Source: Isoetes taiwanensis (lineage: Eukaryota; Streptophyta; Lycopodiopsida; Isoetales; Isoetaceae). From it: DNA of 64,000 bases. A model generated the notes under the pieces. The model saw only the letters and a list, made by a program, of their open reading frames with translations, was not told where the DNA came from and did not search any database. Every line of letters begins with the position of its first letter. The stretch's first letter is position 1. The stretch lies in assembly GCA_021234155.1 (NCBI GenBank), contig JAJEKV010000033.1:14949422-15013421 (forward strand), read 5' to 3'. Of this stretch, positions 16,321-59,500 are shown piece by piece. Made by a program: the position numbers and the translations under genes.

Positions 16321-16326
16321 GAAAAG

Positions 16327-17110
16327 ATGTGTGAGCTTTTGGAGGAGTACTCCAAGGCTTTGATCCGTAGCTGATAATGTTGGGTCTACTCAAATGCAAA
16401 GAAATCGTGAAGGGTTTAAGGCCGTGAATCAATCAGACTTATGGGGAAGAATACCATGATGAAAAGAACCATTCGAAGTTTACGCAGAGAAAACCGGAAA
16501 TACGGCTGCTTTTGAATCTGATATCTCTTCTCTTGGGCAACGTGGGACTTATTTTTACAAAAGGGGATCTAAAGGAAGTCGAGAAGAAGTTGCCAAGTAC
16601 AAGGTGGGTGCACTCGCCGTGTTGGGCTTATAGCCCCAATTGATGTGACCATACCTCCCCGGAAACACATGGCTTGATCCTTCTCAAACGCCCTTCTTCC
16701 ATGTTCTTAACATTCCCACAAAGATTAATAAGAGAACTGCGGGAAATTGTGTCCAATGTGGATCCGATTAAAAAGGAGATAAAGTTGGTTCATCCGAGGC
16801 AACTTTGCTTGCAAAGCTTGGCATTCGGCCCATTTTCTTATGGTTCGCTTTTTGATCCCGGCAAATCCTTGACTTGACCGAGGATGATCCGATGGCTAAG
16901 TTCTCTTCCGGTGTTTCAATGGTGGTTGCATTGTCATTGGCGAGGGATACCCTACTTTGGCGCAAAGAAATGCTCATTTCTTCGCTAATTCATATAAAAT
17001 GTTCTTTCCGGGGTTGCTTGCAAATGTAATATTCATATCCACAAAAGTGCATCATCAAGTTAAATAATTTTTGAAGGATCCTCTAAGTTTGTCGCTGCTG
17101 CTACAGCTCC
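16327..17110 (+). pseudogene. RPP0: Ribosomal protein P0 (uL10) fragment, copy 1
   Basis: Translates in pieces to the cytosolic 60S stalk protein P0, which anchors the P1/P2 acidic proteins. Recognisable blocks include the start of the protein (CELLEEYSKAL), a GADNVGS-like block, FTKGDL, the NVD-x-IKK block and a block ending [12 protein letters not shown]. Several indels separate them and the reading ends in a TAA at 17065-17067, where the family has a Glu or Ala codon. The acidic C-terminal tail (the stalk DDDMGFSLFD type) is absent. Conserved Leu codons read CCG (Pro) here but CTG in copy 2. The homology runs directly into a Deg-protease fragment. Confidence 0.85.
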
Positions 17111-17262
17111 AAATTGTCAGAATCACCGATGAGTTCCTCGTTGAGTTTGGAGTATTACCACGCTTGCGTGATGTCAAGTAATGTAGTTGGCTATCCAATT
17201 GGTGGCTTACACAATATCGCTATACAAGTGGAATTGTTTCTAGAAACAAGATTGCGATAAAC
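17111..17262 (+). pseudogene. Deg/HtrA protease fragment (DEG9-like), copy 1
   Basis: Follows the P0 homology with no intervening sequence. The blocks VEFGVLPRL and VVGYPIGG can be read in different frames. In plant Deg proteases this block precedes the catalytic-Ser region. In copy 1 it is broken by indels; copy 2 (48396-48518) is clean. The catalytic GNSGGP block is not present. Confidence 0.65.
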
Positions 17263-17686
17263 GGAGCAAATCATCGAAAACGAGAGCAAAAGGAATATTC
17301 CTCAAAGATTCCCTTTTTTTTTTTTTACAAAAAGGGGGTAAAACTAGGTTAAAAAAAAAAAAGATGCATGAAATTTATTTTGACCCCCCCAAAATGACTA
17401 ATTTTTTTTGTGCAACCAAAGAATTGACATTTTTAAAGTGTCACTTTTCTTAGCAAATAGAATGTTCTTGAAGTATATTTTACGAGAGAATCTCTAATTT
17501 CGTGAGGATAAAATATTTAACAAAAAAATTGAAGTAAGTCCGTGAATCAAACTCAGTAGTATTCTCAAAATTTGAAGATAGAATCTTCATATTCACATGC
17601 AAAATTTACGCCTTTTTCTAAGACTCCGCTTATGTGCAAAAGTATGAGGAGGATGAAGGAGGGATCCGTGACGCCATCATGTTCAT

Positions 17687-20600
17687 TTATGCCATCCTCA
17701 TCACCTTCACTTCCTTCATCACACTAGAGGAAGTGCTTGAGTTATCTTCCTCATCACTATCAACAGATGGTGAAGCATTGCCACCACCTTCTTCATCATC
17801 TTCTTCGTAATTACAAGCTTTTTAAGCAAATTGATAGTCCTCCATGTAGACGATTGTCGATTTCAATTTAAAATCATAGCATAATATAGTCACGCCATTA
17901 AGGATCAGCTCATCCCTACAACCCACCTTCTTGACTTTCTCCCTTTTCCTTGGCTTCTCATTTCTAACTCATATCTACCTTCAAAAGCATTTTCTCGAGC
18001 GTGTTGCAAGCCAATGAATCTTGAGTTTAGTGACTAAGCCTTCCTCCTTGACCGTGGTCAAGCACTTTTGCTATCCGTAGAAGGTCGACCTTTGTCATCC
18101 TCCCTCAAGGGAAGAGCAATTAGCATACCCTTGGTAATTTCTCGTGATATTACCTTGAGGCTCATTCCTCGCCTTTGGTCCGAGGTACATGACTCCGATC
18201 CTCGCCTTCTTCTATCGCAGTGCTAACGTAGCATTGCTTGGACATGCTTGGTGTCAGGTTGATGGAAGGTGTTAGGCCATTGAAATGGTTCTTGCAACCG
18301 CCTTTAGAGCTATATTTTTCACAACAATTTTCTGTTCTCGAGAAAGAAGTTACTCCACCACATTCGATCTTCTTCTAAGAAGTACTTAAAGCCCGAGGAA
18401 ATTCCATTTTCTATGGCTTTTAAGGATGACTCGGGGTACTTTTCTTCCCGCTTGGACTCTTAGGATTTTTGAGAGGAAGTTGCTCAAAGACGCTCTCTAC
18501 TGAAGGAAGTGTCCGAATATATTTAAGGAAGCGTGCATCCCTCCTCGTGGACTCCAAATCCTTAGTTGTGGTATACTTCTTGCCCCTCAGAAGAAACTCG
18601 GGTCATCCTTCAAGTAGAACTTGATGTGATGTTGAAAGGTGAGATCATTCAATTTGTTCACAGCCTTGTTCTCTCGTCTCAAACGCTGAGAGAAAATAAA
18701 CTCTCTCAAATCAGCCAGCCTCTTTAAGAAGATCGATCACCGGAGTGGGAGTGTAAGAATCTTCAATAATTCGAACTAAAGTAGGAAGAGAGAAAGCCTT
18801 CTTCCTTCCGAGGCGCACGTAAAATCTGGCTAACATTTGGTCAATTTGATCATGAGTGTGGCCTACAAGTAAGAAACCCAAATTTCACTTTTCTAAAGAT
18901 CCCTAGCTCCACTAACATGGCACAAAGACGCAAAAGAGTGTTTGGTTCTTGTTCTCCCTTGTAGTATTGTCAAGTTGCGTAAAGCAATCGGTGGTAATTG
19001 CTCTTGCTCGCATTGTGACCTTGTTAAGAATTGTAATTGTGAGGTTCGGGTCACCATGCAAGTTTGATACGCCAAGAATACTTTGCACTTTAGACTTCCT
19101 TTGAAGACCATAGCTCCTACAAGGTGGACCTTAACAAAACATTCCTCCGCACATCTTTAGGAATGTTCAAGAAATGCGTAGAGTAGTTTTTTGGTCCATT
19201 CCATCAATCACAATGCATATATATTGCAAAGGGACGCTCAAGAGCTTTTTTCTCCGTGTTTGGCAAGCTTTCTTCTCTCTGCTTGTTGTTCACGATGTCC
19301 CGCAAGGTTCTCATGCACAATATCCAGAGAAGAAATGAGGTCAAAGCATTATCTTTAAAACAAGTGAGAGATTGGAGAACATGAGCTTACTTCTTTCGAC
19401 CTCCTCGCCTTTGCAGCTTTTTTGACTTTTAATTCTCAAGACACCTTGAACAAACGTGACATTCTATGTCTCCCCGAATTTTCACTAAACCAAATTCACT
19501 TTTCCACACCGGGTGAAGTGTGAGTAAGAGATGTGTCAAGCCGAAAGTGCAAGTCTCTTTGTACTCATTAAAAACATCTTTTTGGTGATGTTATCGCTAA
19601 ATGATACATGTTACCGTTAGGGCAGCTTCTCACATGTTTCTCTAAAATATTTCTCCATCCACGACATAAGAGCAAAGGGCATGCATGGTTATAACTCTTC
19701 TTGGTCCACAATGATCATTAATTGCTGGATTTTTGTCCAGCCTTTTGTGTATTCTAGACATTCTCGTGGAACCTAAACAAAGGACAACCATAAAGCATTT
19801 CCGCAAACTTTGACGGTTAATGTAGTGCAAGAAGGTGTTGCGGTCTGGTCTTACATGATAGGCCAAATAGGCATTCCGGTCAGCCAATGTCATTGAACTC
19901 AGAAGTTGTCTCTAATTGCTCGTAATTTAGCCATGTTAAATTTGTTGATGCAACCCAATGAGCAAAGATTTACTTCTTAAAAGTTTTCTCATTTTGTGCT
20001 CGGCCCATAAGGTTTCTTCTTCTTACAGAGGAGCATGCTTCAAACTAAAATCCACCTTGAATTTCTTGGTGGATTGGCTAGAGAATGTGTAATCTCGCTG
20101 CACTTCGCTGGTGTCTTCATCCTCCTAAGAGAGTTCTACTGGGGTGACCTCCTCTACCCTTAGTGGTGTGCTTGTAGAGGAGAACAAACCACGTGAAGAA
20201 GCCGCACTTCTGATAAGGCGGAGGTGGTGCAAAGTGTTGAATGAAGGAGATGGGCCACCATATGATGTGCCAAATAAAAGTTGTTGTAGCTGCCTTCACA
20301 GGGAGTTCGCTCAAACATGTCTCTTAAAGCGACCGAAATTCTCGCGAAACCCATGTGTCACCACGCTTGTGTGAAGAGGTGTAGATGCCGCAGGTCGCCT
20401 TCATTTGTAGTGAAATCGCGGGTGGAGAAGCGATGGAGGATCTCGCAGCCTTTAACGCGTTGTATTCCCCGCATGTGTAAGTGAAGGTGGAGAAACAACA
20501 AACGGCGGAGGTAGCCTGTTCAAAAATTTGCCGAGGTCGAGCCATTGTAGTGTCGGGATGGTACAAATGGTGGTGGAAGATTGCTACGCGGCAAATGTGA

Positions 20601-20826
20601 GGGTTGGAAAGGTGGTGGCAGCCGGTTTCCTACCGGACTTGGAGAGGGTTGGAAAGGTGGTGGCAACCGCTAGTTACCGGACTCTGAGTGTCTTCGAAGC
20701 AACAAAGACCTTGTCGAGGTAGGTGTTGAAGAAGCATCTCCGCCTTGTGTTCCATCCGGGCGTAGAGGTACTTGGGCAAACAAATGGTGGTGGAAGTTTG
20801 TTCACTAAGCCGTTAACCATGTCAAA
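17687..20826 (-). CDS. Gene A, DUF7869-like transposase-related protein, copy 1
   Basis: Minus-strand gene, the same as 48941-52069. Visible motifs in order are a VCRKCF-like Cys block (broken in this copy, near 19.8 kb), VIDGMDQK near 19190-19213, QLDNTTRENKNQ near 18940-18975 and LLVGHTHDQIDQ near 18838-18870. The C-terminal tail ends at TAA 17687-17689 after an acidic Ser/Asp/Glu-rich stretch. The spaced Asp and His residues fit a large family of uncharacterised eukaryotic proteins (Pfam DUF7869, from memory) for which a transposase-like RNase H fold is my inference. Copy 1 is more broken than copy 2, with indels near CAG/CTG sites. The 5' end faces gene B across a palindrome array. The start is uncertain. 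Confidence 0.65.
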
Positions 20827-20878
20827 CAACCGCAAAAAATTGTGGGCTTGTTACTAACTCACAAGTCGATTGACTAAT

Positions 20879-20970
20879 GATATTCAAGAATACAAATGCT
20901 ATTCCTAATAGTATTTTGTGTGCAAAGATTTGTCGTGGTGCTAAAGATGTTATTCCGTAATACACTTGTC
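20879..20970. repeat. Single TATTC..GAATA dyads upstream of gene A
   Basis: Three dyads of the same family as the main array, without the longer arms. TATTCAAGAATA is at 20881-20892. A longer one with centre CCTA is at about 20896-20916, and one near 20950-20965. In copy 2 they lie at 52127-52138, about 52138-52160 and about 52196-52212. The first is identical in both copies; the others differ at the centre. Confidence 0.7.
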
Positions 20971-21212
20971 CGCAGTGTTTGGACAAGACGATTCCACATT
21001 ACATAGAAAAACACAACCGACAAAGGGCCTACCTTTTAAAAGGAAAATCGAGCGCCCCGGGCCATGATTCCGCCAGAGATTTAGTCGCCACCGAAAGAAA
21101 CCGATCAATATACATTTGTCAGATTCCGATTTACATAGCGAAGACAATGGATGTAAGCATATAAAAGTACATAGTACGCCTTTTCTTTTGTTTCCCCGAT
21201 TTGTTTTGTAGG

Positions 21213-21480
21213 GCAAAGTGTATTCCGTATACACTTTGCCCATTCGTTAAGAGCAAAGTGTATTCCTAATACACTTTGCTTATCATCGGAAGTGCAAAGT
21301 GTATTCCTAATACACTTTGCCCTTCGGTGAAGAGCAAAGTGTATTCCTAATACACTTTGCACTACGCCAGAGTGCAAAGTGTATTCCTAATACACTTTGC
21401 TCCTTGTTCGAAGGGCAAAGTGTATCCCTAATACACTTTGACTTCACTGAAGGGCAAAGTGTATTCCTAATACACTTTGC
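21213..21480. repeat. Seven-unit palindrome array, 40-bp pitch, copy 1
   Basis: Seven near-perfect palindromes with half-site GCAAAGTGTATTC facing its reverse complement. They start at 21213, 21253, 21294, 21334, 21374, 21415 and 21454, so the pitch is 39-41 bp. Spacers of 12-14 bp differ in sequence, so selection or conversion has kept the dyads. The centre reads CCTAAT in most units, but CG in copy 2. The array lies between the 5' ends of genes A (minus) and B (plus), where a shared bidirectional promoter would be. Confidence 0.95.
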
Positions 21481-21721
21481 TTGTCTTTTTGAAACTCTTG
21501 TTTTTAGCACTTAATGAAGACACCTTTAGCTAAAAATGCACTAATTTTAAAGGTTAAAATAACAATTTCGAGTCCAATTAAGGCACAAAAAATTGTCTTA
21601 GAGTTACTATATTTCTCGCTTGTTTTCCCCTGCCTTTTTCTCGCCTTTAGGGCACAAGATTAGTAAATGTTATTCGAATACGCTGCTCAATTTCCTTTAA
21701 CATTGTTGTTTTAAACGCTTC

Positions 21722-24700
21722 AAGGCAGTGGAAGTAGGAAGCAAGAGGGCATCAAAGAAATCTCATAAGCCTAAGCCGCCCACACCCACAAAAAGCACAC
21801 CGACACACGGACGAACCCGCTATTTAGAAAACTTTCAAACGCAGTGGTTCGTGAACTGTGGGTGCAGATGGAAAATACAAAGACACCGACGCTTTTGTAC
21901 GCCCCCAGAAAAGTGCCGGTAACAAAAGGTACGCCGACCGAAGTTTGTGAACCTTGGGACAATAAAAGATGTTGAGGAAGTTGCCTGGACAAGGTGGTCG
22001 TGGGGAGGCTATCCTTCAAGACCTCCCAAGGCTTCATAGTTGTGGACATCGTGATTTTTTAGAATTGTCAAGGCAGGCAACCACCGCAGATCGCATAAAT
22101 TCTTTTCACACTACCGGCCAAAAAGAAGCCTCGTGGTTCGCATTAGACAGTTTGTACCAAGACAAGCGGGACTTTCCCCGCCGCTGAGTCCGAAAAGCAT
22201 CTCGATGGAGAAAGGTCACAATCATCACCCTCGATGGTAGTTCTTCGTGGAGGTCATCGATGGAGGTTCCCGTGAACAAGACGGAAGAACCCCCGGGCGC
22301 CAAGGAAACTTAGCAGGCCAAGGGGAAACCATAGCCGCTAAAGAACCAAAGAAGCTTTAAAGCACAAAGCCAGCCTTGAAATCACAGAAGTCCCCGAGGA
22401 ACCTAAGAAGAAGAAGGGGAAGGGTAAAGCACCTGGTGTTGCTATTAAGGAAAAAAAAGTTGATAAAACATCTGAAAAAATGGAAGAGATTAACCTGCAC
22501 AAGTTTGTGCAAGGTGTCATTTATTTGCCAGTTACTTCAATGAAGCTTCCTCCCAAAAATGAAGTCGGGTGAAAGGCCACTTCAGTTCGCAAAATTTATG
22601 CCGATCACTTGAGGAACCCGGCGACGTAATAAGGAGCAATCCAAATGCTCATGTGGCCCCAATAGTTGTCCTTGTTGACAGGAGCAAAGGCACAACCCCC
22701 GTGAGTATGATGAGAAAACGCCGACACGCATAATCACTACGCCTTGGGAGGGAATCATAGCTTCAAGGCAAGAAGGCAACTTTACAAAGAAAAGAAGAAC
22801 CCGAGGTACCTCTCCGGCCCTCTCCGGGCCGCTTCACCGTGGGTCTTACGATGAAGAAGCAAAAATCGCTGCCAACACCCACAATGCCGACAACGAAAAC
22901 AAACTAAAGATGAGCTTTGTCGACAAGATCCGGTTTATGCATCGTGGAGTATGTAATTTTCAAGGAAAAGTACCTGAGGACCTTAAGAAGCCAGCATTTT
23001 CCTTTGGAGCTTAAGGAGGCGCGGTGCCATTGAATGTCGCCTCGAAATATGACGAGGCCAAAAAAGGCGCCTCTCATTGGCCACGACAACCGGTTCCAGC
23101 TTAGCTTTTAGAGATGGCAAGGTAAGCACAAAATGTATTCCGTAATAGCAAACCGACTATTTGACGCGGAAATCTTCTTGAACAGATTTGGGAACCTGTG
23201 ACGAGATATTTACAATGTTCGAAATAGGGGAGTTAAAGAGCAAGGGCAAGGAGACAGCCAAGAAAAAAAACCCTGACGCGCCCAAAAAAGAAATGACCAT
23301 TACCGCCCTGAGGGAAATGCGTGGCTTCTCCGACACGGAGCTTCTGGAGCAGCTTCTCCAAAAAGTTGTTGATAAGAAGTTTAGCCTAGAAGAAATGTCA
23401 AAGGAATTGCACAAGTAAGTTCTCTGACACAAACTTTACTCTTTGCATGTTAGATTCCCAAAAACATCGGCGTACATAGTGTATTCTAGAATACACATGC
23501 CATCCTTCACACGGCAATGTGTATTCCGACATACACATTGCTTGTCTCTAGAAAAGCATTGTGTATTCCGGAATACACATTGCTCCTCTAAAGAAAGGCA
23601 TGTGTATTCCGGAATACACATTGCTTTTCTAGAGACAAGCAGTGTTTGTCCTGTAGCAGAATTATTTTCTGCATATTGTTTCGAGGTAGCATCAAGCTAA
23701 CCGGCTTGTATTCCGTATACAAATAGCTTGACTTTTATTTGTTTTCCTTTTACTTTGCCTTGATTCTTACGCTTAATCTCATTGTTTCCTTTAACGCCTT
23801 GCAGCCAAAAGAACGCCATAACATGTCAAACATGTTTGATGGAGCAGCTAAACGTCAAACATGGGAAAGGTGCAAGGAACTCTACCCAATTGCCACATCC
23901 GACGAAAGATTGTGCAATATGCACCAAATTTTGAGGGCTGGGTAAGTACTCAAAATTCCTTTTCTCACAAACGATCTCTTGACAGCTTGTTGTTTTGTTT
24001 TTCTTCGAGCAAAAAGAAAAATAAGGACCCGCCCGAGGGCTTTATGAATTTGGTTAGAACAAAGACGAAGAGAGGTCGTTAGTCGAAAGAAGAACTGTTG
24101 AGCCGTAACCATCCGACTACGAGATTCTCGCATGTTTGATCAAAACAATTTATATTCAATCATTCATGGTGATTGCAACGAACCTTGTCGGAACGGTTAA
24201 GCCACGTGACTTTACTTTGGTTATTGCTGATCTTCCCTACGGGTTTAAGCTTAAAGACAGCCAGATACGACGACCAGCCCTTCAAATTTTCGAGTTTAAT
24301 GCTTTCATTGAAGGAATCAAGCAGATCTCAACGCCAAACATTGGCGCTTAGTTACGCTCCATTCGAAAGCATGCACCGCTTGGTGGAATCAGCTTTCAAA
24401 AATCACTTTGGTTCTCCGGGGCCAGTGTGATATGAAAACCTTGTTCAGTAAGTCTTATTCCGTATCACAATTACTTTTCTCTTTAATTACGAGTGTATTC
24501 CTAATAGTGTTTCCCCGCTTCCTGGCCAAAGTGTTTTTTTTTTTGCTAACATCACTTTAAATGCTTCACTAGGTACAAAACTAACATCAACTACCATGGT
24601 GGAGGACCAAGGTTGCTCAAAGAAGGTAGAGTACCTTCATGTAGCTTATTGGAGTTTTGATGGGAAGAGGTCCATGGAACACTTTAACACCGCCACCAAA

Positions 24701-25242
24701 AACTTTTCAAACGCCCTAGAGTTTCCAGCAGCCTTACGTAAATTGCAGGACCCAAGTGCACAAGGCAGATTGTGAATCACTACCGTAAACCACAAAAGCT
24801 CATCAACCATCTCCCGGACATGTTCTCGCCCGTGAGATTGGGTGCTTGATGCTTTCTCCGGTTCCGTACTACTATCGCATGTGCACTTAAGAAGGGCCGC
24901 AAATCGTAGCCGCGGATATTGATAAGGAGGTCGTGCATTTTGTGAAGATGAGACTGGCTGCCTTTACCTACTTTACCGTGATGAAAATCAAGAGTTAGGG
25001 GCCAAGTCTTCATCCGATTATGCTAAACTAACGCCCTCGTGAGATACAAAATTCCCATTCTCGAAAGCTCACTAGACGACGAGGCAACCTTTGCAGAGCT
25101 TAAAGAAGTAGCTTTAGCTACCATTCCAGAGAACAAGGAGGATACAAAACTTAAGTCTCCAGCAAAGGAGCAGATTGAACAGAAGGACGAGACGGCAGAG
25201 AGCAGCAAAAAAAATGAGGAGGACTATGATGTAGATCTTTGA
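21722..25242 (+). CDS. Gene B, beta-class DNA amino-methyltransferase, copy 1
   Basis: Spliced gene, the same as 52980-56544. The N-terminus is basic (GSKRASKKSHKPK), like a nuclear signal. Middle exons are Lys/Glu-rich. The exon at 23186-23414 ends FSLEEMSKELHK before a GTAAGT donor. Introns inferred: 23122-23185, 23415-23804, about 23942-24009 and 24448-24572. The catalytic part has HGD near 24168, VIADLPYGF at about 24220-24246 (motif IV, DPPY type) and, later, LDAFSGS at 24845-24865 (motif I, SAM binding), then VAADIDKEV (acidic residue that binds the ribose). This IV-before-I order is that of bacterial beta-class N6-adenine/N4-cytosine methyltransferases. The acidic C-terminus stops at 25240-25242. 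Frames shift several times, often near CAG/CTG sites. Confidence 0.75.
23479..23624. repeat. Four-unit palindrome array inside gene B intron, copy 1
   Basis: Dyads at 23479-23496, 23514-23541, 23556-23583 and 23598-23624, pitch about 42 bp. Half-site GCAATGTGTATTC differs from the main array only in the outer arm. The first unit has centre TA and is identical in copy 2. The others have centre CCGG here and CG or CGG in copy 2. The array lies in the 390-base intron 23415-23804; another dyad, TTGTATTCCGTATACAA, is at 23707-23723. Confidence 0.9.
24448..24572. repeat. Two TATTC..GAATA-type dyads in a gene B intron
   Basis: The intron between the DLPY exon and the following exon begins GTAAGTCTTATTC, so a dyad starts within 7 bases of the 5' splice site. 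A second dyad (GTGTATTCCTAATAG) lies at 24489-24503. Intron 23122-23185 likewise carries ATGTATTCCGTAATAG about 12 bases after its donor. Equivalent dyads are at 55699-55709 and 55738-55750 in copy 2. Confidence 0.7.
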
Positions 25243-28200
25243 TCATCGTGATATTAAAAGTATCATTATTTATTACAATGAATCTTCAATATTGATGTAC
25301 AAACATTTATTAAAAACATATTACTTTTTTTTCCTTTCTATTCTGGTGCTTTTTTTTGTAATGCTTTCAGTCTCTTCAAGTCTATGCCTAAATTTCGCTA
25401 TTTTTATGATTTCTGTTTCATAAGTACAAAGTTTTCGCCTAATGATGGGCCAAAATGGCATGAAAAAAAATGCAAACCTCTAGAAATTCTCAACAACTAT
25501 CAAAAAGGGCTTATTTTAGAAACATGGTGTTTTTTTAAAGGGAATCTTTGAAACGGGAGTGATGCAACACTCCCGTTTAATTTGCAATCGTGTTTAGAAT
25601 TGAAGTCACATCTTATGTGCATGGTTATTGTTAGGTGTGCAGGTAAGTTAGTGAATTGTAATGCTTATTCATTTGATTTCTTTGGAGTTATATACATACA
25701 TTTTTAAATTTTGACGAGAGAGACACATTTTGCTCCACAGATTGATTTTGCTCGACCATTAAGTACATTATCTCAAACCTTATAGTATTTTGCAAATCTT
25801 AATATACAAAGATATAAAAAACTTGTATATGCATACCCCACAAACGAGGATCGCTATGTACAAATTCGTATCTTGGAATAAAGGGCAAATATGCCCATCC
25901 GACAGCTCTCGTTGCCCAGAGTAAGCCTCCGTGTGAATATGCACCCAAACCAAAGGGGGTTTCAGGGGGATTTTGATTTAAATGTGTTGGATGCAATGGT
26001 CTATATTAATTAATGTTAATGATAGTTATGTGTCGATTGCTATATATCAGAACTTTTACAAGCATCTTAGACACTTCTTTTGTTCCATTCCTTAATTTTG
26101 AGAATTTGAGTGTACCAAATAGAAGGTTTATACTATCTACGACTTCCATGGAATCATAAGCATACGTCTTAGATCAAACCTGATTTAGAAAGCTCCACTT
26201 ATTCTGCTTATATCTAGACATTCTTCTAGTTTGAAACAACCACACAAAGTAATCGCAAATTCCACACAAACCTAGCAGAGCAAGCTCGTGCATAAACAAT
26301 AAGCAGCCACATGCAAGTATCCTGTTCATGGCATAGCAACAACGACTGGCAAAGCCATAACAATTATTGAAAACTTAAAAATGTAGAAGCTCATCATATT
26401 ATAAAAAAGAATAACCAAACGAAAGCAAGAAACCATTTCAAGCAGTCAAAATCACGAGCATATGGCGTAAATAGCATCTTTTTACCTTGCCTTTAGATCC
26501 GTGTTATAACCGCTATTACCAAATATCTTGGACATTTTTAAGCCCGGTACTTCCCGATGCCAAGATATTCTCTCGCCGCTAGATTAAAGCCACGATGTAT
26601 GCCATCCGTATATTATTTGATGATAGTTTAAAGCCGTGAGCTAGTTTACAACATCCAACATAAGTTTGTTTGTGCATTTTGATCGCACCTAGTTTGTAAA
26701 CCTCAGATATGCATATCTATCTTGCATATTTTTCAGCTGCCACAAGCAAAGTTGGCTCTAAAACAAGCAATAAGCATCGATATTTCTTGATGCTCTACCA
26801 TTACTATCAAACTGCAACCGATCTGCTTCATAATATAAGCCTTGAAGCAAGATCATACCTTCAGAGGCCATAGCTTAGACTCGCAATAGATCACCATCTC
26901 TTACCATCGATCTCAAGCAAAACCCATCAACTGCTATGCCCTTTTAAGGCCGCTTTGGCCACCATGTTTGCCGGAAAAGCCCTAATATTTTAGTCGAATC
27001 CAATATTATAGGTCTTTAGAAAATTATAAACTCCAACCAATAAGCCATTCAAAAAACTATTGTATTTTCCAAGGCTTGTGTAGTATGCAAAGGCAAAACT
27101 AAATGCATATTTTCTATATTTGCTAAAAAGTCGCCATGATGGGATATTTTGAAGCCAAAAAATGCATTTCATATCATATCAATCTCTTTGTATACTAAGA
27201 AAGTCCCTAGTTTGCATTTTTGCATTTTAGCATGGTTTTGAAGATACGAAGAGCATTTTCTTTCTTTTTTTTGTTGCCCCTAGGGCAAGCCCTCGTCCCA
27301 TGTGGGTTTATGGCATATTCCGTGTATATGCCACTATATGCCCGAATATGCAATGCTTGCAAACAAAGCGTGGTCAACTTATGTTGCTTGGCGTACCACT
27401 TTGGAAACCAAATAACCGGTTTTGGTCCGATAAGATTTTCCTTGCAGATTTAACAAGCATTGATTGTGGAGGCAAATGGAGCCACCAAGACCGTAATAAC
27501 ATTTCTTGGTTACCGTTAGCTTATACCGATGTATCTATGAAAAAAAGAACAAGCTATTTGATTATGGACTATACAAAGTTTTAGCCCCGATGCATATCTT
27601 TCTTCCTCCCAAATAGTCGCCTCCTAACACCACAGACGCTCCTAGAATGGTGAAAGTCAAGATGATGCCGCTTGTTCGTGGAGTACAAAGCATCCGTAAA
27701 ATCGGGTAATTTTCTCGCAACCACCCAAATTGGAACTTTCATGCCATTTTCTTTGTAGCTTATTATATGAAGATAAAACATTCTCGCGACTTCAAAGAAT
27801 ATCCGCAAGAGAATTTAATATCATTTATGATGCCATGCTAATCAGATTCAGTACTCAGCCAGATGCATAATTCAACCGAACAAGACCAACGGATGTGATG
27901 TCAAAGACACCCACCACATCTTAGACTACTGGAGCTGGAAAAAGGACATGGTCAAAGACAACATGTTTGCTTGGTGAGATCAAGAATAAGGAACAAGTAG
28001 GTCTTAGCCTCCAGAATTCATAGACATGGCATAACAACTTATGACCTTGCTACATGTGAGCAAACAATGAATTGTAATTGTTACCAATTGGATAAGCTTC
28101 ATTGTACACGTAATTACAAGTCTATACCTAATTAGTTTGGCTGATACTTAGGCAGTAATGGAAAGTGTACAAACATGACACAATAAAAATACATTATAAG

Positions 28201-28453
28201 AAAAAGATGATACGCATGCTTTCTCTAATAGGTTTCTTCCAAAGAAAGTAATGGATGGCACATCAAACAAAAAAATGTCAAGATAATAAGGCATGCAAAG
28301 GTTAAAACTCTTAAAACAAGATGGTATCAATCTTTGCAAAACGCATGTGCATGATTGCACACAGAGCAATGCCTATCTATCATCATAGTGATGCAAACAA
28401 ATCAACCTTCCTACATCATGCATAATTACATGTCAATGATGACTGATCCCACC
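25243..28453. other. Interval without recognised gene
   Basis: Holds the 3' flank of gene B and AT-rich sequence. Minus-strand frame 25996-25799 (rich in Gly, Pro and aromatic residues) and plus-strand frame 27300-27584 are open but unrecognised. Both are matched at 57095-57316 and 58634-58855 in copy 2 with frame changes, so neither is strongly supported. Confidence 0.4.
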
Positions 28454-48395: not shown

Positions 48396-48518
48396 CCTGT
48401 TGAGTTTGGAGTATTACCACGTTTGCAGGATGCTGTTAATGTAGTTGGCTATCCAATTGGTGGCGACACAATATCAGTTACAAGTGGAATTGTTTCTAGA
48501 AACAAGATTGCGTATTAA
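48396..48518 (+). pseudogene. Deg/HtrA protease fragment (DEG9-like), copy 2
   Basis: The frame reads [19 protein letters not shown], then [15 protein letters not shown], and stops at TAA 48516-48518. Plant DEG9-like proteases read nearly the same here ([29 protein letters not shown] spans the region before the catalytic Ser). It is joined directly to P0, a different gene. Only about 40 codons are present; no catalytic triad residue can be shown. Confidence 0.8.
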
Positions 48519-48940
48519 ACGGGAGCAAATCATCGAAACGAGAGCAAAAGGAATATTCCTCAAAGATTCCCTTTTTTTTTTTTACAAAAAGGGGGTAAAA
48601 CTAGGTTAAAAAAAAAAAGATGCATGAAATTCTATTTTGACCCCCCCCAAAATGACTAATTTTTTTGTGCAACCAAAGAATTGACATTTTTAAAGTGTCA
48701 CTTTTCTTAGCAAATAGAATGTTCTTGAAGTATATTTTACGAGAGAATCTCTAATTTCAGAGGATAAAATATTTAACAAAAAATTGAAGTAAGTCCGTAA
48801 CTGAAACTGTAGTATTCTCAAAATTTGAAGATAGAATCTTCATATTCACATGCAAAATTTACAGTCTTTTTCTAAGACTCAGTTATGTGCAAAAGTATGA
48901 GGAGTGATGAAGGAGGGATCCAGGACGTCATCATGTTCAT

Positions 48941-51900
48941 TTATGCCATCCTCATCACACTGTCACTAGAGGAAGTGCTTGAGTTATCTTCCTCATCACT
49001 ATCAACAGATGGTGAAGCATTGCCACCACCTTCTTCATCCTCTTCTTAAGTAATTACAAGCTTTTTAAGCAAATTGATAGTCCTCTCGCGTGAGCGATTG
49101 TCGATTTCAATTTAAAATCATAGCATAATATAGTCCGTCATTAAGGATCAGCTCATCCCTACAACCCACCTTCTTGGACTTTCTCCCTTTTCCTTGGCTT
49201 CTCATTTCTAACTCATATCTACCTTCAAAAGCATTTTTTAAAAATGTGTTGCAAGCCAATGAATCTTGAGTTTAGTGACTAAGCCTTCCTCCTTGACTGT
49301 GTCAAGCACTTTTGCTATCCAGAAAGGTCGACCTTTGTCATCCTCCTCAGTAGGAAGAGCAATTAGCATACCCTTGGTAATTTCTGTGATATTACCTTGA
49401 GGCTCATTCTGCGTCTTGGTCCGGGGTACATGACTCGATCCTCGTCTTCTTCTCTGCCGGTGCTAACGTAGCATTGCTTGGACATGCTTGGTGCTGGGGT
49501 TGATGGAAGGTGTTAGGCCATTGAAATGGTTCTTGCAACTGTCTTAGAGCTATATTTTTCACAACAATTTTCTGTTCGAGAAAGAAGTTACTCCACCACA
49601 TTCGATCTTCTTCTAAGAAGTACTTAAAGCCTGAGGAAATTCCATTTTCTATGGCTTTTAAGGATGACTCTGGGGTACTTTTCTTCTGCTTGGACTCCTT
49701 AGGATTTTTGAGAGGAAGTTGCTCAGCACGTTCTACGAAGGAAGTGTCTGGAATATATTTAAGGAAGCGTAATCCCTCTGGTGGACTCTAGTCCTTAGTT
49801 GTGGTATACTTCTTGCCCTGTAAGAAACTCTGGTCATCCTTCAAGTAGAACTTGATGTGATGTTGAAAGGTGAGATCATTCAATTTGTTCACAGCTTGTT
49901 CTCTGTCTGAACGTTGAGAGAAAATAAACTCTCTGAAATCAGCAGTCTCTTTAAGAAGATCGATCACTGGAGTGGGAGTGTAAGAATCTTCAATAATTCG
50001 AACTAAAGTAGGAAGAGAGAAAGCCTTCTTCCTTCTGAGGCGCACAGAAAATCTGCTGAACATTTGGTCAATTTGATCATGAGTGTGGCCTACAAGTAAG
50101 AAACCCAGCTTCACTTTTCTAAAGATCCCTAGCTCCACTAACATGGCACAAAGATGCATAAAAGAGTGTTTGGTTCTTGTTCTCCCTTGTAGTATTGTCA
50201 AGTTGCGGGTAAAAAGCACTGGTGGTAATTGCTCTTGCTCGCCGCGGGACCTTGTTAAGAATTGTAATTGTGAGGTTCGGGTCACCATGCAAGTTTGGAT
50301 ACGTCAAGAATACTTTGCACTTTAGACTTCCTTTGAAGACCATAGCTCCTACAAGGTGGACCTTAACAAAACATTCCTCTGGCACATCTTTAGGAATGTT
50401 CAAGAAATGCGGTAGAGTAGTTTTTTTTTGGTCCATTCCATCAATCACAACAGACATATATTGCGATTGGGCGTTCAAGAGCTTTTTTTACGTGTTTGGC
50501 AAGCTTTCTTCTCTCTGCTTTGCTTGTTGTTCCGCGATGTCGGCAAGGTTACATTGCACAATATCGTAGAAGAAATGAGGTCAAAGCATTATCTTTAAAA
50601 CAAGTGAGAGATTGGAGAACATGAGCTTACTTCTTTTCGACCTCTGTCTTTTGCGGTTTCTCTTTGACTCTTTAATTACGCACACCTTGAACAAGCGGAC
50701 ATTCTATGTCTCACGGGAATTTTCACTAAACCAAATTCACTTTTCCACATCACGGTGAAGTGTGAGTAAGAGATGTCTTTGAAGGCGAGTGCAAGTCTCT
50801 TTGTACTCATTAAAAACATCTTTTTGGTGATGTTATCGGTTAAATGATACATGTTCTTGTTAGGCAGCTTCTCACATGTTTCTCTAAAATATTTCTCCAT
50901 CCACGACCACGGCAGAAGGGCATGCATGGTTATAACTCTTCTTGGTCCACAATGATCATTAATTCTTGGATTTTTGTCCGATCTTTTGTGTATTCTAGAC
51001 ATTACGGTGGAACCTAAGCGGTGGACAACCATAAAGCATTTACGGCAAACTTCTTGGCGGTTAATGTAGTGCAAGAAGGTGTTGCGGTCTGGTCTTACAT
51101 GATAGGCCAAATAGGCATTACGGTCAGCCAATGTCATTGAACTCGTAGTTGTCTCTAATTGCTCGTAATTTAGCCATGTTAAATTTGTTGATGCAACCCA
51201 ATGAGCGACATTTACTTCTTAAAAGTTTTCTCATTTTGTGCTTTCGTCCATAAGGTTTCTTCTTCTTCAGAGGAGCATGCTCTCAAACTAAAATCCACCT
51301 TGAATTTCTTGGTGGATTGGCTAGAAAGAATGTGTAATCTCGTTGCGCCGTTGGTGTCTTCATCCTCCTGAAGAGAGTTCTACTCACGGGGGTGACCTCC
51401 TCTACCCTTAGTGGTGTGCTTGTAGAGGAGAACAAACCACGTGAAGTTGTACTTTCGGATAAAGCGGAGAGGTGCGGTGTTGAATGAAGGAGATGGGCCA
51501 CCATATGATGTGCCCGGCCGAAGTTGTTGTAAGCGTCTTCCGCGGGGAGTTCGTTCAAACATGTCTCTTAAAGCGGTGAAATTCAAACCCATGTGTCACC
51601 ACGTTTGTGTGAAGAGGTGTAGATCTTTGCGAGGTCGTCTTCATTTGTAGTGAAATCGTGGTGGGAGAAGCGATGGAGGATCTCGCAGCCTTGAACGTCT
51701 CTTGTATTCTGGCATGTGTAAGTGAAGGTGGAGAAACAACAAACGGCGGAGGTAGTCGGTTCGAAAAATTTCTTTGAGGTCGAGCCATTGTAGTGTCGGG
51801 GATGGTACAAATGGTGGAAAGATTGCTACGTGCAATTGGTGAGGGTTGGAAAGGTGGTGGCGGCGGTTTCCCTCTTGGACTTGGAGAGGGTTGGAAAGGT

Positions 51901-52069
51901 GGTGGCGATCACGCTGGTTCTTGGACTCGGGTGTCTTGAGAAGCAACAAAGACCTTGTCGAGGTAGGTGTTGAAGAAGCATCTCCGTCTTGTGTTCCATC
52001 ACGAGTAGAGGTACTTGGGCAAACAAATGGTGGTGGAAGTTTGTTCCTGGAAGCGGTTAACCATGTCAA
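48941..52069 (-). CDS. Gene A, DUF7869-like transposase-related protein, copy 2
   Basis: From the N-terminal side: a Pro/Thr/Ser-rich region with two repeats of TTFPTL type (52.07-51.8 kb); a less certain segment to 51.3 kb; a conserved part from 51137 containing VCRKCFMVVHRLGS, a DHCGPRR block and HRMSACSRC (Cys pair); an intron inferred at about 50632-50579 (GTAAGC donor); then YMSVVIDGMDQKKTTLPHF, QLDNTTRENKNQ and LLVGHTHDQIDQMFSRFS (50096-50055). The Asp/His positions are those of the DUF7869 family. A C-terminal extension has an aromatic patch (EDRMWWSNFFLEQ) and an acidic tail with stop at 48941-48943. Function is not established. I infer a nuclear, possibly nucleic-acid-processing protein from a mobile element. 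The start codon is uncertain: a TTG at 52069 and an ATG near 51788 are both possible. Confidence 0.7.
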
Positions 52070-52465
52070 ACAAGCGCAAAAATTGTGGGCTTGTTACTAA
52101 CTCACAAGTCGATTGGACTAATGATATTCAAGAATACAAATGCTATTCGGAATAGTATTTTGTGTGCGACATTTGTTGTGTGTGCGCAAAAGATGCTATT
52201 CGAATACACTTGTCGAGTGTTTGGACAAGGCGTATTCCACATTACATAGAAAAACACAACCCGACGGTGGCCTACCTTTTAAAAAGGAAAATCGGCCCTC
52301 GATTCGCGTATTCCGCTTTTCAGAGATTTAGTCGCCCGGCCCGAAGCCCTTCAGATCAATATACATTTGCTGTATTCCGATTTACATAGCGAAGACAATG
52401 GGCGGGTAAGCATATAAAAAGTACATAGTGCGTCTTTCTTTTGTTTCCTGATTTGGTTTTGTAGG

Positions 52466-52733
52466 GCAAAGTGTATTCGAATACACTTTGCCCATCTATC
52501 GAAAAAACAAAGTGTATTCCTAAATACACTTTGCTCATTTAGCAGTGCAAAGTGTATTCGGAATACACTTTGCCCTTCAGTGAAAACAAAGTGTATTCGG
52601 GAATACACTTTGCACTACGCCAGTGCAAAGTGTATTCCGAATACACTTTGCTCCTTGAAAGAAGGGCAAAGTGTATTCCGAATACACTTTGGACTTCACC
52701 CCGAAGAAAAAGTGTATTCGGAATACACTTTGC
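52466..52733. repeat. Seven-unit palindrome array, 40-bp pitch, copy 2
   Basis: Units start near 52466, 52507, 52547, 52587, 52625, 52666 and 52706. Half-sites are as in copy 1 (AAAGTGTATTC inner part). Centres read CG, CCTA, CGG or CCG. It lies about 250 bp before the gene B start and about 400 bp from the gene A N-terminal region. Confidence 0.95.
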
Positions 52734-52979
52734 TTGTCTTTGGAAACTCTTGTTTTTAGCACTTAATGAAGACACCTTTTAGCTAAAAACGGACCACTTT
52801 AAAGGTTAAAATAACAATTTCGAGTCCAATTAAGGCACAAAAATTGTCTTAGAGTTACTATATTTCTGCTTGTTTTCTGTCTTTTCCGGCCTTTAGGGCA
52901 CAAGATTAGTAAATGTTATTACGGAATACGATTTTTCGTTCAATTTACTGTCTTAACATTGTTGTTTTAAACGCGTTTG

Positions 52980-55900
52980 ATGGCGGGGAAGTAGGAAGCA
53001 AGAGGGCATCAAAGAAATCTCATAAGCCTAAGCGTCCACACCCACAAAAACACACGGCCGTGACACGGACGAACACGCTATTTAGGAAAACTTTCAAGCG
53101 GTGGTTAAGTTACCGAGTGCGGATGGGAAAATACTGACTGCTTGGCGTTTTTATGCGTCAATAAAAAGTCTTGGTAACAAAAGGTACGCCGACTCGAGTT
53201 TGTGAACCTTGGGACAATAAAAGATGTTGAGGAAGTTGCGGACAAGGTGGTCGGTGGGAGGCTATCCTTCAAGACCTCCCAAGGCTTCATAGTTGTGGAC
53301 ATCGCATTTTTAGAATTGTCGGTGTGCAACCACCGCCTTTGTACAAATTCTTTTCACACTACCGGGTCAAAAAGAAGCACGTGTTCGATAATTAGACGGT
53401 TTGTACCGGTACAAGGCGAGGACTTTCTGTCGGTGAGTCCGAGCATTCGGATGGAGAAAGGTCACAATCATCACCCTCGGATGGTAGTTCTTGGGGAGGT
53501 CATCGGATGGAGGTTCCCGGGAACAAGGCGTGGAAGAACCCCCCAATGCGGCCAAGGAAACTTAGCGGGCCAAGGGAAACCATAGGCGCTAAAGAACCAA
53601 AGAAGCGGAAAGCACACGGCGGACTTGAAATCCGCGAAGTCCCCAGGAACCTAAGAAGAAGAAGGGGAAGGGTAAAGCACACAGTGTTTGCTATTAAGGA
53701 AAAAAAGTTGATAAAACATCTGAAAAAATGGAAGAGATTAACCTGCACAAGTTTGTGCAAGGTGTCATTATTGCCGATCACTTCAATGAAGCTTCCTCAG
53801 AAAAATGAAGCTGGGTGAAAGGCCACTTCAGGTTCGCAAAATTTATGCCGATCACTTGAGGAACACGAAGGGACGAGAATAAGGAGCAATCAAATGCTCA
53901 TGTGGCCCCAATAGTTGTCCTTGTTGGCGAGGGCGGTGCACAACCCCCGGAGTATGGCGGAGAAAACGGCCCGACACGTACACTCACTCGTCTTGGGAGG
54001 GAATCATAGCTTCAAGGCAAGAAGGCAACTTTACAAAAAAAAAGAACCCAGAGGTACCTCTCCGTCCTCTGCTGTCTATCTGTCTTCTTCTGGATGAAGA
54101 AGCAAAAATCGTTGCCAACACCCACAATCTTGCGACAACGAGTACAAACTAAAGATGAGCTTTGTCGACAAGATCCGGTTTATGCCGCGGGGTATGTAAT
54201 TTTCAAGGAAAAGTACGGTGAGGACCTTAAACCCGACATTTTCCTTGGAGCTTAAGGAGGCGTGTGCCATTGAATCTTTGCACGAAATATGGCGAGGCCA
54301 AAAAAGCGGATCTCTCATTGGCCACGACAAGCTGGTTCGATTAGCTTTTAGAGATGGCAAGGTAAGCACAAAATGTATTCGAGAATAGCAAACCGACTAT
54401 TTGGCGTGAAATCTTCTTGAACAGATTTGGGAACTCGGGGCCGAGATATTTACAATGTTGAAAAGAGGGAGTTAAAAGCAAGAACAAGGAGACAGACAAG
54501 AAAAAAACCTCGGGCGTGCCCAAAAAAAGAAATGACCATTACCGTCTCGGAGGGAAATCACGGGGCTTCTCCGACCACGAACTTACGGGCGGCTTCTCCA
54601 AAAAGTTGTTGATAAGGAGTTTAGCCTAGAAGAAATGTCAAAGGAATTGCACAAGTAAGTTCTCGACACAAACTTTACTCTTTGCATGTTAGATTCCCAA
54701 AAACATCGGCACACATAGTGTATTCTAGAATACACATGCCATCCTTCACCACGGGCAATGTGTATTCGGAATACACATTGCTTGTCTCTAGAAAAAGCAT
54801 TGTGTATTCGAATACACATTGCTCCTCTAAAAAAAGGCATGTGTATTCGGAATACACATTGCTTTCTAGAGACAAGCGGTGTTTGTCTGTAGCGAAATTA
54901 TTTTACGCATATTGTTTCGAGTAGCATCGGTTAACGGTTTGTATTCGAATACAAATAGCTTGACTTTTATTTGTTTTCCTTTTACTTTGCCTTGATTCTT
55001 ACGTTTAATCTCATTGTTTCCTTAACGTCTTGCAGCCAAAAGAGCGTCATAACATGTCAAACATGTTTGATGGAGCAACTAAGCGTCGAAACATGGGAAA
55101 GGTGCAAGGAACTCTACCCAATTGCCACATCAAACTGGCGCATTGTGCAATATGCACCAAATTTTGAGGGGCTGGGTAAGTACTCTCAAAATTCCTTTTC
55201 TCTGCACAAGCGATCTCTTGGCGGTTGTTGTTTTGTTTTTCTTGAGCAAAAAGAAAAATAAGGACACACCCGAGGGCTTTATGAATTTGGTTAGAAACGG
55301 CCGGGAAGAGAGGTCGTTAGGCTGAAAGAAGAAGCTGTTGAGCGAACCATCCGACTACGAGAGATTACGCATGTTTGATCAAAACAATTTATATTCAATC
55401 ATTCATGGTGATTGCCGCGAACCTTGTCGAACGGTTAAGCCACGGGACTTTACTTTGGTTATTCTTGATCTTCCCTACGGGTTTAAGCTTAAAGGCGGCC
55501 GAATCTGACGACCAGCCCTTCAAATTTTCAGAGTTTAATGCTTTCATTGAAGGAATCAAAGCGGATCTCAACGGCCAAACATTGGCGTTTGAGTTCACGT
55601 TCCATTCGAGCATGCGATGCGGCTTGGTGGAATCGACTTTCAAAAATCACTTTGGTTCTCCGGTTCGGGCGGGGATATGAAAACCTTGTGCGGTAAGTCT
55701 TATTCGAATACAATTACTTTTCTCTTTAATTACGTAGTGTATTCGAATAGTGTTTCTGTTTCGGTTTTTCGAGTGTTTTCTTGTTTTGCTAACATCACTT
55801 TAAATGCTTCACTAGGTACAAAAGCGAACATCAACTACCATGGTGGAGGACCAAGGTTGCTCGGCAAGGTAGAGTACCTTCATGTAGCTTATTGGAGTTT

Positions 55901-56544
55901 TGATGGGAAGAGGTCCATGGAACACTTTAACAACTTGCCGCTGTCAAAACTTTTCAAAGCGTCCTAGAGTTTCCAGCGGTCTTCACGAAATTGCGGGACC
56001 CAAGTGCACAAAGCGGGATTGTGAATCACTACCACAAAAAGAAACCACAAAAGCTCATCAACCATCTCACGGACATGTTCTTAAGAAGCGTCCGGGGATA
56101 TTGATTGGAAAGATGAGCTGATGCTTTCTCGTTCCAAGTCTTCATCCGGTACTACTATCGCATGTGCACTTAAGAAGGGCCCTTTGCAGAAGCTTAAAGT
56201 GTAGCCCATGGATATTGATAAGGAGGCGTGCATTTTGTGAAGATGAGATCTTTGGCTGCCTTACCTACTTTACCGGATGAAAATCAAGAGTTAGGGGCCA
56301 AGTCTTCATCGATTATGCTAAACTAGCGTCCTCGGAGATCTGACCTCCATTCTCGAGCTCACTAGGCGATTTGTTTCGAGGCAACCTTTTCTTCCTGCTT
56401 AAAGAAGTAGCTTTAGCTACCATTCCGAAGAACAAGGAGGATACAAAACTTAAGTCTCCAAAGGAGGAGCAGATTGAGCGAGGGGGAAGGGCGAGGCGGT
56501 GACGAACCCAAAAAAATGAGGAGGACTATGATGTAGATCTTTGA
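52980..56544 (+). CDS. Gene B, beta-class DNA amino-methyltransferase, copy 2
   Basis: ATG at 52980 is favoured because a basic GSKRASKKSHKPK stretch follows (with one CAG-type indel). In the catalytic exon one frame reads LYSIIHGDCREPCRTVK, then RDFTLVILDLPYGFKL: HGD at 55404-55412 and DLPY at 55467-55478, 19 codons apart as in bacterial DPPY enzymes. After an intron, NYHGGGPRLLGKVEYLHVAY is followed by a middle region that may recognise DNA. Motif I is scrambled here, but GTTIACALKKG is intact near 56148-56180. The C-terminus is acidic, with stop at 56542-56544. DLPY replaces DPPY in both copies. Amino-methyltransferases make 6mA or 4mC; which base cannot be told from this sequence. Confidence 0.75.
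54718..54862. repeat. Four-unit palindrome array inside gene B intron, copy 2
   Basis: Dyads at 54718-54735, about 54755-54781, 54797-54822 and 54836-54862. The first has centre TA, the same as copy 1. A separate TTTGTATTCGAATACAAA lies near 54940-54957 in the same intron. Confidence 0.9.
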
Positions 56545-59500
56545 CTCTTGCATATTAAAAGTATCATTATTTATTACAATGAATCTTCAATATTGATGTA
56601 CAAACATTTATTAAAAACATATTACTTTTTTTTTGGGTAGTTACCTTTCTATTATTGTAGTGCTTTTTTTTTGTAATGCTTTCTAGAATGCTTTCTCTTC
56701 AAGTCTATGCCTAAATTTAGCTATTTTTATGATTTACGTTTCATAAGTACAAAGTTTTAAGCCTAATGATGGGCCAAAATGGCATGAAAAAAAAATGCAA
56801 ACCTCTAGAAATTCTCAACAACTATCAAAAGGGCTTATTTTAGAAACATGGTGTTTTTAAAGGGAATCTTTGAAGCGGGGTGATGCAACACTCCCGTTTA
56901 ATTCTGTCGTGTTTAGAATTGAAGTCACATCTTATGTGCATGGTTATTGTTAGGTGTCTGCGGGTAAGTTAGTGAATTGTAATGCTTATTCATTTGATTT
57001 CTTTGGAGTTATATACATACATTTTTAAATTTTGGCCAGAGAGACACATTTTGCTCCACAGTTGATTTTGCTTTCGACCATTAAGTACATTATCTCAAAC
57101 CTTATAGTATTTTGCAAATCTTAATATCTGATATACAAAAACTTGTATATGCATACCCCACAAACGAGGATCGCTATATGCAGTCCGGATCTTGGAATAA
57201 AGGGCAAATATGCCCATCAAACGACTCGTTGCCCGAGTAAGCCTCCTCAGGTGTGAATATGCACCCAAACCAAAGGGGTTTTGAGGGGGATTTTGATTTA
57301 AATGTGTTGGATGCAATGGTCTATATTAATTAATGTTAATGATAGTTATGTGTCGATTGCTATATATCGAACTTTTACAAGCATCTTAGACACTTCTTTT
57401 GTTCCATTCCTTAATTTTGAGAATTTGAGTGTACCAAATAGAAGGTTTATACTATCTCGACTTCCATGGAATCATAAGCATCGTCTTAGATCAAACTGAT
57501 TTAGAAAGCTCCACTTATTACCTTATATCTAGACATTCTTCTAGTTTGAAACAACCACCACGAACCTTTGCGATCCCACACAAACCTAGCGAGCAAGCTC
57601 GTGCATAAACAATAAGCGACCACATGCAAGTATCCTGTTCATGGCATAGCAACAACGGCCCAGCAAAGCCATAACAATTATTGAAAACTTAAAAATGTAG
57701 AAGCTCATCATATTATAAAAAGAATAACCAAGCGAGCAAGAAACCATTTCAAGCGGGGTCAAAATCCGAGCATATGGCGGAAATAGCATCTCTTTTACCT
57801 TGCCTTTAGATCCGGGTTATAAATCGGCTATTACCGACCTATCTTGGACATTTTTTAAGCACGGTACTTCACGATGCCGTATATATTCTCACATAAAGCT
57901 TAGATTAAAACCCGTGTGTATGCCATCCAGGTATATTATTTGATGATAGTTTAAAGCCGAGCTAGTTTACAACATCAACATAAGTTTGTTTGTGCATTTT
58001 GGTACACCTAGTTTGTAAACACAGTATATGCATATCTATCTTGCATATTTTTCAGCTGCCACAAGCAAAGTTGGCTCTAAAACAAGCAATAAGCATCGAT
58101 ATTTCTTGATGCTCTACCATTACTATCAAAGCTGCAACCGATCACGCTTCATAATATAAGCCTTGAAGCAAGATCATACCTTCGAAGGCCATAGCTTAGG
58201 CGCAATAGATCACCATCTCTCTTACCATCGATCTCAAGCAAAACCCATCAATCGGCTATGCCCTTTTTGGCCGCCGTTTTAAACCCACCATGTTTCTTTG
58301 GAAAAAGCCCTAATATTTTAGTCGACCCAATATTATAGGTCTTTAGAAAATTATAAACTCCAACCAATAAGCCATTCGAAAAAACTATTGTATTTTCCAA
58401 GGCTTGTGTAGTATCACAAAGGCGACTAAATGCATATTTTCTATATTTGCTAAAAGGCTGCCATGATGGGATATTTTGAAGCCAAAAAATGCATTTCATA
58501 TCATATCAATCTCTTTGTATACTAAGAAAGTCCCTAGTTTGCATTTTTGCATTTTAGCATGGTTTTGAAGATACGAAGAGCATTTTCTCTTCTTCTTTTT
58601 GGGTTGCCCCTAGGGGGCAAGCCCTAAATCCATGTGGGTTTATGGCATATTCGGGTATATGCCACTATATACTGGAATATGCAATGCTTGCAAGCAAGAT
58701 TGGCCGATGTTGCTTGGCGACCACTTTGGAAACCGATAACCGGTGTTTGGTCCGATAAGATTTTCCTTGCAGATTTAACAAGCATTGATTGTGGAGGCGT
58801 TCCGAACCACCAAGACCAGAATAACATTTCTTGGCTACGGGTTAGCTTGCGCTGATGTATCTATGAAAAAAAAGGAACAAGCTATTTGATTATGGACTAT
58901 ACAAAGTTTTAGCCCCGATGCATATCTCTTCTTCCTCCCAAATAGTCGCTCTCGGAACACCACAGGACGTTCCTAGAATGGTGAAAGTCGAAGATGATGC
59001 CGTTGTTAGGTGGAGTACAAAGCATCGAGAAAAATGGTAATTTTCTGCAACCACCCAAATTGGAACTTTCATGCCATTTTCTTGTAGCTTATTATATGAA
59101 GATAAAACATTACGCACTTGACAAATATCGCAAAGAGAATTTAATATCATTTATGATGCCATGCTAAGCGTATTCGATTACCGGTTGTGATGCATAATTC
59201 AACCGAACAAGACCAGCGGATGTGATGTCAAAGACACCCACCACATCTTAGACTCTTTGGAGCTGGAAAAAGGACATGGTCAAAGACAACATGTTTGCTT
59301 GGTGAGATCAAGAATAAGGAACAAGTAGGTCTTAGCCTCCAGAATTCATAGACATGGCATAACAACTTATGACCTTGCTACATGTGAGCAAACAATGAAT
59401 TGTAATTGTTACCAATTGGATAAGCTTCATTGTACACGTAATTACAAGTCTATACCTAATTAGTTTGGCTGATACTTAGGCAGTAATGGAAAGTGTACAA

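Follow-up and report, generated by a model that had tools for sequence, protein, structure and literature searches.

The window analysed here, a 64,000-nucleotide stretch of the Isoetes taiwanensis genome, contains two divergent genes, one DUF7869-like (gene A) and one resembling a bacterial DNA amino-methyltransferase (gene B), which raises the question of what kind of unit they form and what the methyltransferase would do in it. The original prediction had placed the pair at 17687-25242 and called it a mobile or domesticated two-gene unit. The motifs that it reported for the two genes are present in the window at the places and on the strands given for them, and some 0.8-0.9 kb separates the two divergent genes, close to the ~900 bp reported.

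The unit itself is larger than had been proposed. Alignments of independent genomic copies all ended at window positions 17245 and 25594, the limits of the whole transposon (Table 1). Its termini form an imperfect inverted repeat of ~25 bp (left AACAAGATTGCGTATTAAACGGGAG, right AACACGATTGCAAATTAAACGGGAG), flanked by a 4-bp target-site duplication (TSD) whose sequence varies by copy (TAGA in the window; TTGA, GCTG, ATTT, ACTC, TGAA, AACA and TTAA at other loci). Since locus L045 displays a terminal inverted repeat (TIR) of its own, AACAAGGTGACGGATCAA, together with the TSD TCTA, a terminal AACA and a 4-bp TSD are valid for two families. The copy at locus L038 lies inside a PPR gene, with the TSD TTAA. 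Joining its flanks minus one TSD yielded ...LQQCLKPDKVTF... in frame, as read by eye, and the joined protein matched PPR repeats.

Copy number was assessed in the host's own genome (1.66 Gb, 1,110 contigs), whose plant origin is borne out by nuclear genes for the RuBisCO small subunit and by the PPR gene. A degenerate TIR pattern had 1,322 exact matches genome-wide (668 + 654), compared with zero for the reversed control pattern. A 1.1-kb piece of gene B detected 1,156 first-look candidate places, and every one of the 40 places then scored was a match, with identities of 87-94% when the window's own locus is set aside. These copy counts are lower bounds, as are the pair statistics given below. 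On the strength of the TIRs, the varying 4-bp TSDs, the high copy number and the PPR-gene insertion, the unit is almost certainly a DNA transposon that carries a methyltransferase gene. Mobility, the first half of the prediction, is thus borne out by TIRs, TSDs and many loci and families, whereas the 1,322 exact TIR matches rule out a domesticated single gene. Bacterial contamination was likewise rejected, given the introns, the PPR-gene insertion and the spread of copies across many contigs.

Table 1. Features of the transposon copies in the window (positions in the window).
Feature	Position	Strand	Basis or remark
Left target-site duplication TAGA, copy 1	17241..17244		
Whole transposon, copy 1, decayed	17245..25594	+	8,350 bp (8.35 kb); sharp boundaries common to independent genomic copies
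Left terminal inverted repeat, copy 1	17245..17266	+	decayed AACAAGATTGCGTATTAAACGGGAG
Gene A, DUF7869 putative transposase, pseudogene	17900..20744 (~17.9-20.8 kb)	-	PF25273 on homologous pieces; tblastn with L041
A/B intergenic region, with the main palindrome array	20879..21490		array core 21207-21481; decayed GTGTATTCCGGAATACAC units
Gene B, ParB-like + beta-class N6/N4 DNA methyltransferase, pseudogene	21751..25242	+	at least 5 exons; exon limits mapped across from L038
ParB-like region of gene B	22553..23074	+	LGGNHSFKARRQLY; phrog_1033 and TIGR03764 matches
Palindrome array, second mapped intron of gene B	23479..23645		GTGTATTCCGGAATACAC
Methyltransferase exon with motif IV	24005..24440	+	ADLPYGF
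Last methyltransferase exon, motifs X and I	24573..25242	+	DAFSGSGTT in intact copies; PF01555 on homologous exon
Right terminal inverted repeat, copy 1	25570..25594	-	reverse complement of AACACGATTGCAAATTAAACGGGAG
Right target-site duplication TAGA, copy 1	25595..25598		
Transposon copy 2	48501..56913	+	same TSD, near-identical flanks

The window holds two copies, one in each arm of an ~18-kb segmental duplication (15073-32662 and 46324-64000, 89.7% identity). As its TSD is identical to that of copy 1 and its flanks are near-identical, copy 2 arose by this duplication. Both copies are pseudogenes. Compared with better copies, gene A of copy 1 contains up to 26 stops (in one alignment) and gene B 15-21, with many frameshifts, so copy 1 is dead. 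The second copy and the dead state of the first had escaped the original prediction, as had the TIRs and, described below, the ParB-like domain and the family-specific palindrome arrays.

Gene A of the window contains LDNTTREN and VGHTHDQID. Pieces of homologous copies matched the Pfam family DUF7869 (PF25273) at 1e-11 to 1e-33, with one gene A fragment reaching 116.9 bits against a curated cut-off of 26, and a 987-aa open frame at locus L041 matched the full domain with an E-value of 4e-51 (173.7 bits), which confirms the proposed DUF7869 relationship. Three acidic motifs (IDG.DQ, QLDNTTRENKNQ and VGHTHDQIDQMF; in short IDG.DQ, LDNTTREN and GHTHDQID) did not vary among six copies drawn from several families. 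An active site of the DDE type is plausible, and gene A is the putative transposase, which would cut at the TIRs. The AlphaFold model of the DUF7869 core (pLDDT 35.8) was too low in confidence for fold searches, and a profile search of the PDB with the DUF7869 alignment returned no convincing relative. The Pfam entry is without assigned function and DUF7869 was absent from the literature searched; here the domain is tied to TIRs, 4-bp TSDs and a methyltransferase gene.

For gene B, parts of GDC...ADLPYGF remain at 24.2 kb of the window and DAFSG at 24.85 kb. The gene was read from L038, a single little-decayed copy, using its own splice signals and with no base altered. This gave five exons encoding 943 aa, without the first exon that bears the start codon. 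The homologous last exon matched PF01555 (N6_N4_Mtase) at 1e-17 (65 bits, cut-off 26.7), and residues 546-905 of the L038 product matched a PHROG DNA methyltransferase profile at 5e-27. Because motif IV (GDC...ADLPYGF) precedes motifs X and I (QKPQKLI...DAFSGSGTT) in both L038 and L042, gene B falls into the beta class of amino-methyltransferases, as had been suggested. The textbook catalytic motif is D-P-P-Y, with the class pattern [DNS]PP[YFW]; motif IV of gene B reads D-L/I-P-Y, one residue off this pattern. That the motif starts with D and not S favours N6-adenine over N4-cytosine as the predicted product base. The enzyme is probably catalytically active in live copies.

N-terminal to the methyltransferase, a ParB-like domain has moderate support from profile matches. 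The profile phrog_1033 ('ParB-like partition protein') matched three of five members (best 4.4e-6) and the ParB profile TIGR03764 matched at 7.8e-4; phrog_723 and phrog_6392 also matched, more weakly than phrog_1033. The match is weak in individual members, and the domain is named ParB in two libraries. No ParB was found in a PDB profile search with the ParB-like alignment, and the AlphaFold model of the ParB exon (pLDDT 37.5) was again too low for fold searches. The N-terminal ~140 residues of gene B matched no profile and rank among its most variable portions, with L038 and L042 sharing 20% identity there.

The association of the two genes extends well beyond the window. When the 150 best-scored matches of each gene family were compared, 24 A/B pairs lay within 15 kb of each other, 22 of them divergent, with 0.4 expected by chance. 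These pairs and the Pfam matches rule out a chance coincidence of motifs. In addition, four DUF7869 loci (L042-L045, of which L042 and L043 are one family) were chosen by score regardless of gene B, and all four carried a divergent gene B. GDC and AD[L/I]PYGF were retained throughout and DAFSGSGTT in the less decayed loci. Protein identity of the gene B blocks to L038 was ~20-65%, with most of the ParB part and of the first methyltransferase part at 42-51%. A fifth locus, L041, retained the N-terminal part of gene B. Its presence in the same layout in four of four diverged loci demonstrates that gene B is an old and regular part of this transposon group within this genome.

Selection on both genes was estimated by the NG86 method. 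Between L038 and L040, pS and pN were 0.706 and 0.124 for the last methyltransferase exon and 0.827 and 0.088 for the ParB exon; for the C-terminal half of gene A, compared between L041 and L038, they were 0.619 and 0.101. The resulting between-subfamily dN/dS of ~0.06-0.08 is rough because synonymous sites are near saturation. A same-family pair (L040 and L024) served as a near-neutral control and gave a dN/dS of 0.58, closer to the neutral value that is expected once an element has inserted. Gene B is therefore under strong purifying selection between subfamilies, as strict as that on gene A.

The noncoding parts of the element contain arrays of short palindromes that are private to each family. 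Family 1 (F1) elements have 8-19 palindromes of the form TATTC-N(0-4)-GAATA, where 0-0.3 would be expected, and five remain in the decayed copy 1. Loci L042, L043 and L044 are without the F1 palindrome and have CGGTATAAATTTATACCG in the same position instead, and L045 has a third palindrome, TCTATGCGCGCATAGA. Allowing up to four mismatches, elements contain 3-14 (F1), 6-18 (F2) or 17 (F3) palindromes of their own family and 0-1 of the other families; a scan of the rest of the window at the same threshold gave none. None of the palindromes is exonic; they occupy the A/B intergenic region, the gene B introns and the untranslated ends. Two that fell inside aligned blocks (in L038 and L040) are in introns bridged by the alignment, the former placed by explicit splice sites and the latter judged by position.

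By analogy with the VANDAL transposons and their VANC proteins, we propose that gene B recognises its family's palindromes, the reading part being its ParB-like region or else the rapidly evolving N-terminal domain, and that it methylates adenine, or less likely N4-cytosine, on its own element. Such methylation might keep silencing by host cytosine methylation off the shared A/B promoter; alternatively, it might label the element as self during transposition. We regard the overall proposal of binding, self-methylation and one or other of these functions as evenly poised, and the step in which gene B itself reads the palindromes as open in equal measure to either answer. That the benefit is anti-silencing or self-marking is somewhat doubtful when taken by itself. 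More tentative again is the fullest version, in which a phage-type ParB-methyltransferase was taken up as a permanent second gene, recognises family-private parS-like palindromes in promoter and introns and writes N6-methyladenine against host silencing, with reader, writer and sites having co-evolved.

The main rival concerns the reader, which could be gene A or a host factor. The gene A transposase may bind the palindromes, and gene B, unconnected with them, may be an accessory in its own right whose methylation targets copies that are replicating or have just transposed. Some transposases do bind subterminal repeats, the sequence of gene A also differs between families, and L045 has palindromes ~370 bp from the left end and ~360 bp from the right end. 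The F1 array, however, is internal, with only one unit near a terminus in L038, and we consider this explanation rather unlikely. If host factors were the readers, the palindromes would be promoter or enhancer elements, or else RNA hairpins, and gene B would act elsewhere, for instance by placing 6mA as an activating mark. The position of the main array in the shared A/B promoter region is in keeping with this, but three unrelated family-specific motifs in the same placement, with none elsewhere in the window, are better explained by a reader that the element encodes, and a role for host factors or hairpins appears distinctly unlikely.

Two further explanations would deprive gene B of its proposed activity. 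Its departure from the textbook motif IV would be understandable if methylation had been lost and the product had a purely structural or binding role; however, motifs IV and I and the QKP of region X are kept across families under strong purifying selection, which makes such a loss improbable. Many copies are decayed, as they would be if gene B were a functionless host or bacterial fragment picked up by Pack-type capture. Against this, gene B keeps its place and orientation in families that have diverged to ~50% protein identity, and its dN/dS between subfamilies is ~0.06. Capture of this kind is scarcely credible, and we reject it on the conservation of gene B and the selection acting on it.

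The element bears on a wider problem, as functional 6mA in plants and its writing enzyme are disputed. This transposon, present in many hundreds of copies in a single plant genome, encodes a conserved amino-methyltransferase and also contains candidate target sites. The question becomes testable, with methylation predicted at or near the palindromes of one family only where gene B is expressed. If true, the proposal would document for the second time, independently of VANC, that transposons co-evolve with DNA motifs private to them, and DUF7869 would gain a functional context.

Among known transposons, the Sola superfamily of Repbase has a 4-bp TSD in common with this element; we know of no methyltransferase in Sola. 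VANDAL elements have a TSD of ~9 bp and combine it with a MuDR transposase and VANC, in contrast to the DUF7869 protein and 4-bp TSD described here. The resemblance to VANDAL lies in the motifs. In Arabidopsis, the noncoding sequence and introns of VANDAL elements contain short family-specific motifs, and binding of these by the element's own VANC protein leads to loss of silencing (PMC5735166). Both systems thus have family-specific noncoding or intronic arrays and an accessory gene beside the transposase, but VANC is not a methyltransferase, and the VANDAL motifs are 9-mers in one orientation whereas the candidate sites here are palindromes of 16-18 bp.

Transposons with DNA-modifying enzymes are already known (PMC5890265; PMC12730594). 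Among retrotransposons, DIRS elements carry Dam-like adenine methyltransferases, and SymbioLINE and KnitGypsy carry DNMT, for which purifying selection was shown in KnitGypsy (PMC5890265). Like the present transposon these mobile elements have a DNA methyltransferase of their own, but the enzymes are Dam-like or C5-cytosine methyltransferases, and the accessible part of that report mentions neither a ParB domain nor palindromes. Fungal DNA transposons encode TET/JBP (PMC12730594) and so also pair a DNA transposon with a DNA-modification enzyme, in their case a dioxygenase acting on 5mC in other superfamilies. The N4CMT of bdelloid rotifers is, like gene B, a bacterial beta-class amino-methyltransferase in a eukaryote (PMC8885841). 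It belongs to the host, whose transposons it marks and silences, and has an SPPY motif and a chromodomain, whereas gene B is transposon-borne and has D[L/I]PY. The combination seen here, in which a DNA transposon carries a phage-type ParB-amino-methyltransferase alongside private palindromes, is undescribed in the literature searched, where no methyltransferase-carrying DNA transposon of this kind was found.

No close viral source of gene B was found: the viral contigs searched contained no relative, and the nearest phage and plasmid methyltransferases among the matches listed had only 21-28% identity. One remote methyltransferase, without a ParB part, was present in a Mollicutes bin. The architecture is nonetheless phage-type, because a ParB domain N-terminal to an m6A/m4C methyltransferase is known from phages. 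Such fusions are common in Paracoccus phages, and phage ParB-like proteins, including methyltransferase-fused ones, have been proposed to steer modification towards particular viral sites (PMC6536676); Bce_0392 is a further ParB-methylase, as cited in PMC5512222. Gene B shares with the phage proteins the order of the two parts in one polypeptide and differs from them in residing within a eukaryotic TIR transposon, with introns and an extra N-terminal domain.

The transposon, a two-gene element with terminal inverted repeats (TIRs), inserted before a segmental duplication of approximately 18 kb within the window, whose two copies are 89.7% identical. L002 and L007, two loci carrying copies of the transposon group on the same contig, have this right flank in common, and therefore further copies exist.

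Coordinates of the features described (window positions unless another sequence is named)
Feature	Sequence	Position
Duplication, first copy	Window	15073-32662
Duplication, second copy	Window	46324-64000
L002 and L007	Contig of the window	15.30-15.32 Mb
Right-end hairpin	Window	25551-25580
Different sequence with long ORFs	L041	7425-10000

The inner part of the right transposon end forms a hairpin (AAACGGGAGTG ATGCAA CACTCCCGTTT), an inverted repetition of the TIR core; direct repeats take its place at the left end.

In the intergenic array of L038, a little-decayed copy, the core of the family 1 palindromes changes mostly from CCGG to CCAG or CTGG. Methylated CpG produces this pattern when it deaminates, which suggests that the palindromes carry host 5mC.

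At locus L027 the alignment passes from gene B straight into gene A, leaving the intergenic palindrome region unaligned; this copy is possibly rearranged or chimeric. At L041 a different sequence with long ORFs stands in place of the remainder of gene B, apparently another repeat that inserted within the element. Many TIR pairs in the genome-wide list are spaced by only 2.8-4.3 kb (C2, C4, C57, C112, C179 and C224), which suggests non-autonomous deletion derivatives.
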